This document shows, in pieces, positions 53,022 through 56,146 of a DNA stretch of 64,000 nt. The DNA comes from Poseidonibacter parvus (GTDB lineage Bacteria > Campylobacterota > Campylobacteria > Campylobacterales > Arcobacteraceae): assembly GCF_001956695.1 (NCBI RefSeq), contig NZ_CP019070.1, positions 1,364,001 to 1,428,000 of the forward strand, given 5' to 3'. The notes beneath the pieces are model-generated. The model did not search any database, was not told where the DNA came from, and was given only the letters and a program-made list of their open reading frames with translations. Numbering within the stretch: position 1 is the stretch's first letter; each line of letters opens with the position of its first letter. The position numbers and the translations under genes were made by a program.

Positions 53022-53149
53022 AATTATTTCCTCTGTAATTAATAAAAGCTGATATTCTATATGAATTAGCATTATTACTAACTTAAATTTGACTTTATTT
53101 AAATAAAAGTTTAGAGATTTAGGTAATAAAAAACTCAATAAAAAGCCCA

Positions 53150-53227
53150 TATAATGACACTTTTGTGACAAATTGTGTTATTTGGGATTAAGAAAATCTC
53201 ATCTATACTTACGAATATTTTTAAGGA
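53150..53227 (+). promoter_or_regulatory. nrdD upstream region
   Basis: The 213-base argF-nrdD intergenic region contains TATAAT (53150-53155), then an imperfect symmetric patch TGACAC-TTTT-GTGACA followed by AAATTGTGTT (53155-53179), a second possible -10 TATACT (53204-53209) and the nrdD ribosome site AAGGA (53223-53227). The symmetric patch could bind a regulator of anaerobic expression, but it is not a recognisable FNR or NrdR box. Confidence 0.3.
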
Positions 53228-53234
53228 AAAGTAA

Positions 53235-55349
53235 ATGATTGAAGAGATTTTAAAAAGAGATGGTTCAAAGCAAAAATTTGAAGCATATAAAATAGAAGAT
53301 GTAATAAAAAATGCATTTAAAAGTGTTAATATTGTTTACTCACAAGCAGTTTTTTTTAATGTTATTGAGTTAATTAAACAAAAAAGAGTCGTAGCAGTTG
53401 AAGATATTCAAGATATTATTGAAAAAGAGTTATATAAAGCTAGATATTTTGAAGTAATGAAATCTTTTATTGTTTATAGACATTTACATAAAATACAAAG
53501 AGAACAAGTTTTACAACTTGAAACAGATACTACATATATAAATTCAAGTCAAACTATACAAGAGTATATAAATGGTTCTGACTGGCGTATTAAAGCCAAT
53601 TCAAATACTGGATATTCACATGCGGGACTTATAAATAATAGTGCAGGAAAAGTTATTGCAAACTATTGGCTTGATAAAGTTTATTCAAAAGAAGAAGGAT
53701 ATGCACATAGAAATGCTGATTATCATATACATGATTTGGATTGTTTAAGTGGTTATTGTGCGGGTTGGTCTTTAAGGGTTTTACTTGATGAAGGTTTTAA
53801 TGGTGTTAGAGGTAGAGTTGAAAGTTCTGCTCCAAAGCATTTTAGAGAAGCTTTAGGACAAATGGCAAACTTTTTGGGAATATTACAAAGTGAATGGGCA
53901 GGAGCTCAAGCTTTTTCTTCTTTTGATACTTATTTAGCACCTTATGTTTTTAAAGATAAACTCTCATACAGTGAAATAAAAAAAGCTGTTAGATCATTTA
54001 TTTATAATTTAAATGTTCCAGCACGTTGGGGACAAAGCCCTTTTACAAATATTACAATTGATTGGACAGTTCCACAAGATTTAAAAGATCAAATTCCTAC
54101 TTCAAATCAAGAACATCTATTAAAAGATGTTAAAGATGATGAACTATTAGAAGCAATTAAACAAAAAGGCTACTCTACTTTTGAGCAATTAACATACAAA
54201 GATTTTCAAAAAGAGATGAATCTTATTAACAAAGCTTATTATGAAGTAATGACTCAAGGTGATAAAACAGGTCAACCTTTTACTTTCCCAATTCCAACAG
54301 TAAATATTACAGAAGATTTTGATTGGTATGGTGAAAATACTGATATATTATTTGAAAACACTGCAAAAATAGGGTCTTCATATTTTCAGAATTTTATTGG
54401 AAGTCAATATATAAAAGATGAAAATGGAAAACTAATACCAAATGATAAGGCATATAAACCAGGTCATGTAAGATCAATGTGTTGCAGATTACAGCTTGAC
54501 TTAAGAGAGTTACTAAAACGTGGTGGTGGTCTTTTTGGAAGTGCTGAAATGACAGGAAGTATTGGTGTTGTAACTATAAATATGGCTAGACTTGGCTTTT
54601 TATATAAGCAAGATATTAATGGTTTATTAAAAAGATTAGAAGAGTTAATGTTTTTAGCTAAATCAACACTAGAGAAAAAAAGAGTATTTGTTCAAGATAT
54701 GTATGATAGAGGACTTTTCCCTTATACACAAAGATATCTACCTGGCTTTAATAATCATTTCTCAACAATTGGTGTAAATGGTATGAATGAGATGATTAAA
54801 AACTACTTTGAAAATGACACTGATTTATCAAGTGAACTTGGAAATACTTTTTGTAGTGAAATTTTAGATTTTATGAGAGATAAAATGATTGAGTTTCAAG
54901 AAGAAACTGGAAATCTTTATAATCTTGAAGCAACACCTGCTGAAGGGACTACTTATAGGTTCGCAAAAGAAGATAAAAAAAGATATGAAAATATTATTCA
55001 AGCAGGTAGCGAAGATAATATTTATTATACAAATTCATCACAATTACCAGTAGATTTTACTGATGATCCTTTTGAAGCCTTAAGCTTACAAGATGAACTA
55101 CAGTGTAAATACACAGGAGGAACAGTTTTACATCTTTATATGAATGAAAAATTGTCTTCAATAGATGCTTGTAGAAAATTTGTAAAAAATACAATTTCTA
55201 ATTTTAAATTACCATATATAACAGTTACACCGCTATTTTCAGTATGTGAAAAACATGGTTACTTAAATGGAGAACATGAATTTTGCCCAAAATGTGATGA
55301 AGAAATCTTAGCAAAGGAGAAAAGTAATGAACAAACAAGAAGTGCTTGA
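53235..55349 (+). CDS. nrdD: Anaerobic ribonucleoside-triphosphate reductase, catalytic chain lacking the glycyl-radical segment
   Basis: This is class III ribonucleotide reductase, which reduces ribonucleotides to deoxyribonucleotides without oxygen. The 704-residue chain has an N-terminal ATP-cone (~1-90, KRDGSKQKFEAYKIEDV), the (beta/alpha)10 barrel with catalytic-Cys regions HDLDCLSGYCAGWS and RSMCCRLQLD, and a C-terminal zinc site (CEKHG...CPKC). It stops 17 residues after CPKC, before the RVxGY glycyl-radical loop that normally ends the protein. That segment is in the overlapping ORF at 55327. The start has AAGGA at 53223. It is followed by the small radical ORF and nrdG in one operon. 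Confidence 0.95.
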   Translation: MIEEILKRDGSKQKFEAYKIEDVIKNAFKSVNIVYSQAVFFNVIELIKQKRVVAVEDIQDIIEKELYKARYFEVMKSFIVYRHLHKIQREQVLQLETDTTYINSSQTIQEYINGSDWRIKANSNTGYSHAGLINNSAGKVIANYWLDKVYSKEEGYAHRNADYHIHDLDCLSGYCAGWSLRVLLDEGFNGVRGRVESSAPKHFREALGQMANFLGILQSEWAGAQAFSSFDTYLAPYVFKDKLSYSEIKKAVRSFIYNLNVPARWGQSPFTNITIDWTVPQDLKDQIPTSNQEHLLKDVKDDELLEAIKQKGYSTFEQLTYKDFQKEMNLINKAYYEVMTQGDKTGQPFTFPIPTVNITEDFDWYGENTDILFENTAKIGSSYFQNFIGSQYIKDENGKLIPNDKAYKPGHVRSMCCRLQLDLRELLKRGGGLFGSAEMTGSIGVVTINMARLGFLYKQDINGLLKRLEELMFLAKSTLEKKRVFVQDMYDRGLFPYTQRYLPGFNNHFSTIGVNGMNEMIKNYFENDTDLSSELGNTFCSEILDFMRDKMIEFQEETGNLYNLEATPAEGTTYRFAKEDKKRYENIIQAGSEDNIYYTNSSQLPVDFTDDPFEALSLQDELQCKYTGGTVLHLYMNEKLSSIDACRKFVKNTISNFKLPYITVTPLFSVCEKHGYLNGEHEFCPKCDEEILAKEKSNEQTRSA

Positions 55350-55491
55350 TGCAAATGAAAATAAAAGAACAAGATGTATGGTTTATACAAGAGTTATGGG
55401 TTATCACAGACCTGTTGAGAGTTTTAATATTGGAAAAAAAGCTGAACATAAACAAAGAGTAAAATTTGTTGAATCAAAGAATTGTTTATAA
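55327..55491 (+). CDS. nrdD: Separate glycyl-radical domain of NrdD (54 aa)
   Basis: This ORF lies in another frame than the catalytic chain and overlaps its last 23 bases. The product includes RTRCMVYTRVMGYHRP followed by VESFNIGKKAEHKQRVKF. That is the C-terminal glycyl-radical loop (R-V-x-G-Y, Gly at residue 25) and the closing segment of class III reductases. The ATG has a strong AAAGGAGA 7 bases upstream, inside the nrdD coding end, so this is designed initiation rather than a simple frameshift remnant. The peptide presumably assembles with the large chain and receives the radical from NrdG. A C at residue 17 precedes the loop. nrdG overlaps its 3' end. Confidence 0.9.
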   Translation: MNKQEVLDANENKRTRCMVYTRVMGYHRPVESFNIGKKAEHKQRVKFVESKNCL

Positions 55492-56146
55492 TCTAACTAA
55501 GTTTACAACAACTGATTACGTAGGACACTTGTCTTGCGTAATTTGGTTTATAAAGTGTAACTTTAGATGTGAGTATTGCTATAACGATGATTTAGTTTAC
55601 TCTAAAACTGGTAACTACTCATTAGATGAATGCTTAGAGTTTTTAAAAACTAGAGTAGGGTTATTAGATGCAGTTGTATTATCAGGTGGTGAAGCTAGTA
55701 TTCATAATTTAGTTGATTTTTGTATTGAGCTTAAAAAGCTTGGCTTTAAAATTAAACTAGATACAAATGGAACAAACCCAAAACAAATAAAAAAATTAAT
55801 TTCTTTAAATTTGATTGATTATATGGCCATTGATTTTAAAGCAACAAAAGAAAAGTTTTATGAAATTACTAAAACTAATATGTATGATGAATATATAAAA
55901 ACTATAAAATATTTAATAAAAATTAACTTTGATTTTGAAATTAGAACGACGGTCCATTCACAACTTTTAAACAGTGATGATATAAATGAGATGATTACTG
56001 TATTAGAAAATATTGGATATAAAAATACTTATTATTTACAAAACTTTTTACAAACCCCTACAAATATAGGAGATATTAAAGAAGAAAGTATATTTAATAA
56101 AGATGATATTAAATCAAATACTTTAAATATTACTTGGAGAAATTAA
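55466..56146 (+). CDS. nrdG: Anaerobic ribonucleotide reductase activase NrdG (radical SAM)
   Basis: The 226-residue radical-SAM protein has the cluster motif CNFRCEYC, followed by VVLSGGEASIH and KLDTNGTNP. It creates the glycyl radical on NrdD. The start is a TTG at 55466 (or the next codon, also TTG) inside the end of the 54-residue radical-domain ORF, so translation is probably coupled to it. There is no ATG before the cluster motif. Its 3' end overlaps the convergent response-regulator gene by 24 bases. Confidence 0.93.
   Translation: MLNQRIVYNLTKFTTTDYVGHLSCVIWFIKCNFRCEYCYNDDLVYSKTGNYSLDECLEFLKTRVGLLDAVVLSGGEASIHNLVDFCIELKKLGFKIKLDTNGTNPKQIKKLISLNLIDYMAIDFKATKEKFYEITKTNMYDEYIKTIKYLIKINFDFEIRTTVHSQLLNSDDINEMITVLENIGYKNTYYLQNFLQTPTNIGDIKEESIFNKDDIKSNTLNITWRN

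Follow-up and report, generated by a model that had tools for sequence, protein, structure and literature searches.

The window analyzed here, a stretch of 64,000 nt from Poseidonibacter parvus (contig NZ_CP019070.1, positions 1,364,001 to 1,428,000 of the forward strand), contains a class III ribonucleotide reductase (RNR) operon with the gene order nrdD, a 54-residue open reading frame (ORF), and nrdG (Table 1). A first-pass annotation of this DNA had proposed that the reductase is split into a catalytic chain and a separate glycyl-radical peptide, and its description of the locus was borne out in nearly every detail. The 704-residue NrdD ORF stops 17 residues past its CPKC motif, the radical loop is located on the second ORF, which is in a different frame, starts with its own ATG and overlaps nrdD by 23 nt, and nrdG in turn overlaps the 3′ end of the peptide ORF, by 26 nt. 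The strong Shine-Dalgarno (SD) sequence upstream of the peptide was also found, but its distance from the ATG was counted as 6 nt rather than the 7 given earlier.

Table 1. Features of the nrdD–nrdG locus, numbered by position in the window
Feature	Position	Strand	Evidence
nrdD catalytic chain, 704 residues; ATP-cone, RNR barrel and zinc ribbon, without glycyl-radical loop	53235..55349	+	
ATP-cone domain, residues 5-86	53247..53492	+	Pfam PF03477, 58.9 bits
Zinc-ribbon motif CxxHx9CxxC, residues 671-687, final conserved element of the chain	55245..55295	+	sequence
Shine-Dalgarno sequence AAAGGAGA, 6 nt 5′ of the peptide ATG	55313..55320	+	sequence
Separate glycyl-radical peptide, 54 residues, 6.4 kDa (computed mass), ATG start	55327..55491	+	Pfam NRDD, PHROG 4132
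Gly25 codon, predicted radical glycine (RVMGY)	55399..55401	+	alignment with T. maritima Gly621
nrdG, radical S-adenosylmethionine activase (NrdG2), 226 residues, TTG start	55466..56146	+	TIGR02495

The comparison with family profiles showed how the enzyme is divided between the two ORFs. The chain scored 1086 bits against NF006126 (cut-off 548), 532 bits against Pfam NRDD (PF13597; cut-off 26.2) and 400.7 bits against TIGR02487 (cut-off 326), and its coverage stopped at position 660 of 684 in NF006126 and at position 529 of 562 in NRDD. Positions 530-562 of NRDD were matched by the 54-residue ORF with 33.1 bits, against the same cut-off of 26.2. Hence, a single family profile continues from the chain into the small ORF, which is not a chance resemblance, and the split point within the NRDD profile lies between the zinc ribbon and the radical loop. 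The radical glycine, expected in the C terminus of the same chain in class III enzymes, is found on the separate ORF both here and in the relatives. Models of vitamin-B12-dependent RNR matched only the first 91 residues of the chain (38.1 and 22.4 bits; cut-offs above 1000), while nrdG scored 188 bits against TIGR02495 (cut-off 131). The predicted zinc ligand positions C671, H674, C684 and C687, numbered on row L242 and identically in the window chain, were invariant in 32 of 32 rows of alignment A3; the corresponding motif can be compared with that of Thermotoga maritima NrdD (PMC4493059). In the genome of the window, which is a single contig and 100% complete, a DNA search gave a single complete copy together with stray matches of 71 bases and 52 bases, and a protein search found one NrdD chain, without its loop. 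The genome also has one catalytic chain of the class I/II type (C1:12639-14294, PF02867). With regard to the chain itself, the tip of its finger loop (GSAEMTGSIGVV) appears to be without cysteine, as in T. maritima NrdD, and an MCCR motif (SMCCR in the window chain) is invariant in A3; together these hint at the T. maritima NrdD subgroup. An TGTGACAAATTGTGTTA element in the intergenic region 5′ of nrdD (53140-53230), noticed by eye, could be a regulator site.

The conservation of the split was examined in 298 Campylobacterota genomes, among which 131 gave a strong chain match. A separate short peptide was present in 127 of these 131, a fused NrdD in three (G112, G183 and G283), and a broken chain gene with no peptide in one (G168). 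A further 19 of the 298 genomes gave only a weak chain match, and those listed were long frames of another NrdD type. These 19 genomes and three fused hits were left out before the counts, as were the weak peptide matches that were the second hits in three genomes (G196, G150 and G137; E from 2.9e-4 to 7.4e-4), a weak second piece in G183 and an overlapping second chain piece in G263. The check suggested in the first-pass annotation, whether the split is conserved in Campylobacterota, showed that the close relatives are split and not continuous.

Signs of translation were found in the peptide gene. An SD 5-mer was located 5′ of 28 of the 29 distinct peptides of loci L004-L033 (control 0.03), and of 36 of 56 peptides from viral contigs (control 0.04). 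When eight relatives were compared with the window peptide, the third codon positions were the most changed in all eight, as in L009 with 7, 5 and 19 changes by codon position. Short overlapping ORFs are the usual sign of an indel, and the split could in principle reflect a sequencing error or a decaying gene. The probability of this explanation is negligible, since it is excluded by the presence of the same split in 127 of 131 genomes and in other phyla, by the codon-position bias and by the SD sequences.

The overlapping ORFs of the window, which stand in a +1 relation, are also what a frameshift pair looks like, and programmed ribosomal frameshifting or read-through that fuses both ORFs into one NrdD had been named from the outset as the alternative to a trans-acting peptide. 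The data showed that the frame of the peptide relative to the chain is 0, 1 or 2 among the relatives, and that up to six in-frame stops lie between the two, so that no single frameshift or read-through event could serve all of them. In seven of the 127 genomes the peptide is 0.7-1.8 kb from the chain, and in the two of these that were read (G202 and G306) there is one intervening gene, by eye a nicotinate phosphoribosyltransferase. In six other genomes (G125, G253, G243, G299, G236 and G212) every peptide is distant from the chain: reading of both places showed a chain without an adjoining peptide and, more than 60 kb off, a peptide together with nrdG, while G125 and G253 each have two further peptides at a distance. 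In these six genomes a joined product cannot arise, and the radical must come in trans. The gaps were measured from the first ATG of the peptide frame, which may differ from the true start, and a wrong or over-long ORF was picked in rows L010, L017, L021, L027 and L243; for these reasons the frames, stops and unlinked loci are taken as evidence, and the spacing, which ranges from overlaps up to 852 nt (L213, with other short ORFs between), only as a rough guide. The unlinked loci refute frameshifting as the general mechanism, and it is a very unlikely explanation for the window pair; the proposal of a trans-acting radical peptide gains support from its conservation, from the varying frame and spacing, and from the unlinked loci.

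The history of the split was followed in a tree of 67 of the 152 catalytic rows, which were picked for spread and analyzed in quick mode. The minimum number of changes between split and fused states on this tree is six, and the starred branches force four. The tree carries a long-branch warning, which includes the fused G283, Acidiphilium and Actinomyces rows, and for this reason only the re-fusion in G183 is relied on. The fused chain of G183 is sister to a split chain, with a value of 97 in the Shimodaira-Hasegawa-like approximate likelihood ratio test (SH-aLRT), and this NrdD (L084 2033-4798) is 893 residues long from its first ATG, about 190 residues above the usual length. The sister position looks like a re-fusion of two partners. 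Separately, a contig of a Bifidobacterium breve metagenome-assembled genome (MAG; L231) has a split NrdD that is Flavobacteriaceae-like in the tree, which is probably a binning error.

In Prevotella copri NrdD, the glycyl-radical domain (residues 676-739) is made up of a zinc site, a radical loop that is buried and a tail at the surface, and it turns mobile upon binding of deoxyadenosine triphosphate (PMC11226230). The split lies inside this domain, as the chain retains the zinc site while the peptide corresponds to the loop and the tail, together with about 20 N-terminal residues that are not in the aligned fused viral homologues. When a profile of 16 peptides was compared with PDB sequences, Gly25 aligned with Gly621, the radical glycine of T. 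maritima NrdD (PMC4493059). This match was weak (E = 1.2), and hence the assignment of the glycine rests on the register and on a structure model instead. In model 2, a Flavobacterium locus was read through its stop codon and folded as one chain using alignment A4 (48 rows); the mean predicted local distance difference test score (pLDDT) was 88.3, with 56 in the linker block and 80-94 in the peptide blocks. Model 2 was superposed on P. copri NrdD (8p2s_B) with a Z score of 34.4 and a root-mean-square deviation of 2.7 over 554 residues, reaching model residue 769. Residue 755 of the model meets residue 589 of the T4 enzyme (1h7a) and residue 630 of the T. maritima enzyme (4col), and by arithmetic from the ends of the aligned ranges Gly746 of the model would coincide with T4 Gly580 and T. 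maritima Gly621. Five of five T4 rows give this register, and of the four T. maritima 4co rows extending to the loop, three do so. Because A4 is A3 extended with 16 natural fused homologues, which are viral, and the loop pLDDT rose with them, the fused rows bias the loop to the fused pose, and model 2 serves as a consistency check. Alignment A2, in which peptides were loose rows, was dropped, as low identities suggested misplacement by MAFFT. Near the loop, the window peptide has a cysteine, Cys17 (55375-55377), eight residues before the radical glycine; among the four residues that precede the loop, a cysteine occurs in 66 of 66 distinct bacterial cores and in 57 of 58 distinct viral cores, but it is missing in some fused enzymes (L086 and L299).

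A scan of named genomes gave at least 577 relatives, and in 79 of the best 80 loci a chain is located upstream of a separate peptide. The remaining locus, from a Campylobacter sp., has the peptide and nrdG only, with the chain on another contig of that genome. The best 80 include Flavobacterium, Algoriphagus and other Bacteroidota, a Lentisphaeria MAG, a MAG of the Planctomycetota-Verrucomicrobiota-Chlamydiota (PVC) group, and Thiorhodovibrio; as they are ranked by likeness to the window peptide, they may favor split forms. In Pseudomonadota the peptide query matched 20 of 398 genomes, with 12 split with an adjoining chain, three fused, four weak, and one with nrdG and no chain within its locus of about 3 kb. 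In Bacteroidota it matched 15 of 247 genomes, seven of which are split, while the other eight matches lie in long open frames of 714-805 residues, and the one that was read is fused. Each of these two draws includes a centre genome already known to have the peptide. The split arrangement is found in at least four phyla: Campylobacterota, Bacteroidota, Pseudomonadota and Lentisphaerota. It is visible in databases because RefSeq annotates both pieces, and the literature searched, which covered few subscription papers, yielded no account of a class III enzyme that is split. In one Flavobacterium locus, the gap between chain and peptide (L241 4749-4980) contains fragments of zinc ribbon and peptide that resemble a degraded tandem copy, possibly a trace of split remodelling.

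The peptide is also encoded on mobile elements. A scan of IMG/VR found it on 214 contigs, and the following viral counts refer to the best 80 of these, which have 61 distinct 42-residue core windows. The chain was sought with a hidden Markov model within the 80 loci and by whole-contig search of the 50 contigs longer than their locus, the remaining 30 being covered whole by the locus save for 93 bases in one. Only two of the 80 contigs (L104 and L120) also encode the chain, and 78 have the peptide without it, although viral records may be fragments and distant reductase types could have escaped this search. Among the neighbors of viral peptides that were read, L092 has an endolysin and a terminase, L130 has a tape-measure protein and L127 has a tail fibre. 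Eight Campylobacterota genomes with an adjoining peptide have an extra, distant copy, in addition to the six genomes that have distant copies only, and among the distant copies whose neighbors were searched there is a terminase near L327 and L087, a phage transposase near L074 and an endolysin near L083. For the extra copy at L326 (G273), no phage match was found for the one neighbor gene that was searched; by eye, an insertion sequence-like transposase lies a few kb away. Two Allochromatium plasmids encode the peptide, and neither nrdD nor nrdG occurs in the approximately 8 kb read. The window peptide matched the phage family PHROG 4132 (E = 9.4e-10), as did three further peptides, found on a viral contig and in prophages (E of the four down to 7.9e-12); the profile has 179 positions, the peptide matches within 110-163, and the family is annotated as "unknown function". 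Among INPHARED phages there was one weak match (E = 6e-3), so that the evidence from phages comes from prophages and IMG/VR contigs rather than from phage isolates. In some viral contigs that have a split reductase of their own (L333, L335, L342 and L357), the N-terminal extension of the peptide is longer and different. When viral reductase loci were sorted by regex, 20 came out as split, 30 as fused and 30 as unresolved, a rough classification that was not used as a result, and the 32 loci from another viral scan, with the window peptide as the sole query, were not used further. On the L120/L404 viral contig, which has a separate peptide, the chain is in pieces: a 1261-residue ORF has large insertions, and a further ORF precedes the C-terminal piece of the chain, an arrangement that is intein-like by eye.

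Because 78 of the 80 viral contigs are without a chain, the effect of their peptides must fall on host proteins, and one could imagine that they are inhibitors, acting as decoys that sit on the host chain and so block its radical. For a decoy, loss of the glycine would be of no consequence, and yet the glycine is retained in 79 of the 80 viral loci, which were found by a motif that requires it, and also in L096, which the motif missed. Even though the reliance on this motif means that glycine loss would have been under-detected, we consider the decoy explanation unlikely. The chain-less peptides of viral contigs and some plasmids would most likely maintain the synthesis of deoxynucleoside triphosphates (dNTPs) in the host, with a presumed benefit to the phage.

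Taken together, these data suggest that the operon very probably encodes a class III reductase whose glycyl radical is carried by a separate, trans-acting small subunit. Several observations weigh against this interpretation or its parts. The SD 5-mer was present in only 34 of the 75 named-genome peptides (control 0.04), and fused relatives manage without the split. In the structural comparison, the end register of one T. maritima row (4coi_A) is off by two, and in model 1, which was based on A3 (32 rows, few of them with the loop), residues 745-773 had pLDDT below 50. The docking of the peptide into the chain is possible according to model 2, with its occurrence and strength outside the reach of that model. 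Finally, 114 of the 127 genomes have a peptide within 400 nt 3′ of the chain, a spacing that is also compatible with an ordinary fixed subunit.

If the radical subunit does act in trans, the large chain would provide the ATP-cone, barrel and zinc ribbon, and the peptide, translated from its own start, would bind it non-covalently with the RVMGY loop inside the barrel. NrdG would place the radical on Gly25 of the peptide, and the loop would transfer the radical to the barrel, as it does in fused enzymes. A 6-kDa peptide would then be lost to oxygen, where otherwise an 80-kDa enzyme would be cut, and fresh peptide would restore activity. Such an exchange of the peptide after oxygen damage, similar to the swap known for YfiD/GrcA, appears reasonably likely. 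The exchange step is contested by the explanation that the peptide is a fixed, obligate small subunit, which arose by gene fission and stays in a long-lived complex. The close spacing noted above would allow matched co-expression, and the evidence for exchange is all indirect; on the other side, the extra distant copies in eight genomes and the 78 chain-less viral contigs make little sense unless the peptide joins a chain made from another gene. A fixed subunit is a realistic, if somewhat doubtful, alternative. Returning to an exchangeable peptide, we lean slightly toward the broader idea that it is a radical cartridge common to cells, plasmids and phages, which the host NrdG charges and the host chain uses, so that a single phage gene of 50 residues, instead of a reductase, could renew anaerobic dNTP synthesis.

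To our knowledge, the glycyl-radical enzymes described so far keep the radical on the large chain, which means that oxygen cuts the whole enzyme. The cleavage of glycyl-radical enzymes by oxygen is documented (PMC2795772, PMC3019208). If the radical is instead on a separate peptide, oxygen damage would be cheaper for microaerophiles and denitrifiers alternating between oxic and anoxic zones. Labelling, exchange and mutation of the radical subunit could also be done independently of the enzyme, making radical loading and transfer directly testable. A function would also be suggested for PHROG 4132, and a small essential part may be overlooked or misnamed when class III reductases or phage auxiliary genes are surveyed.

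The same split of chain, peptide and nrdG as in the window is found in Cupriavidus necator H16, on megaplasmid pHG1, where a 676-residue chain is followed by a 142-nt gap, a 66-residue peptide and nrdG. These H16 genes were published as NrdD and NrdG (Siedow 1999, as cited in PMC2864759), and NrdDG was reported to be essential for complete denitrification (PMC2864759). The computed mass of the H16 chain alone is 76,191 Da. The NrdD of the original report is reportedly of 76.2 kDa, which would be the chain alone. If this is right, the H16 gene was published as NrdD without its radical site, which the small ORF would supply.

With class III NrdD/NrdG of T. maritima, T4 and P. copri, the split enzyme shares the barrel, the ATP-cone, the zinc ribbon, the RVxGY loop and an adjoining NrdG, and according to the model also the predicted fold and glycine register, while it differs in that the loop is a separate peptide. 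A reductase on two polypeptides is also known in Pseudomonas aeruginosa, where NrdJa/NrdJb form a class II enzyme (PMC9669993), and thus differ in class. In radical delivery there is a likeness to YfiD/GrcA, a small protein that provides a glycyl-radical loop in trans to a loop-less pyruvate formate-lyase chain (PMC8683613), just as the split peptide is a small protein with a glycyl-radical loop for a loop-less chain. The glycine-radical domain that defines YfiD/GrcA, PF01228, had no match in the window genome, and the only Pfam match of the peptide is PF13597. While YfiD backs up an intact pyruvate formate-lyase after its cleavage, no fused NrdD was found in the window genome, and therefore the peptide would be the normal carrier of the radical.
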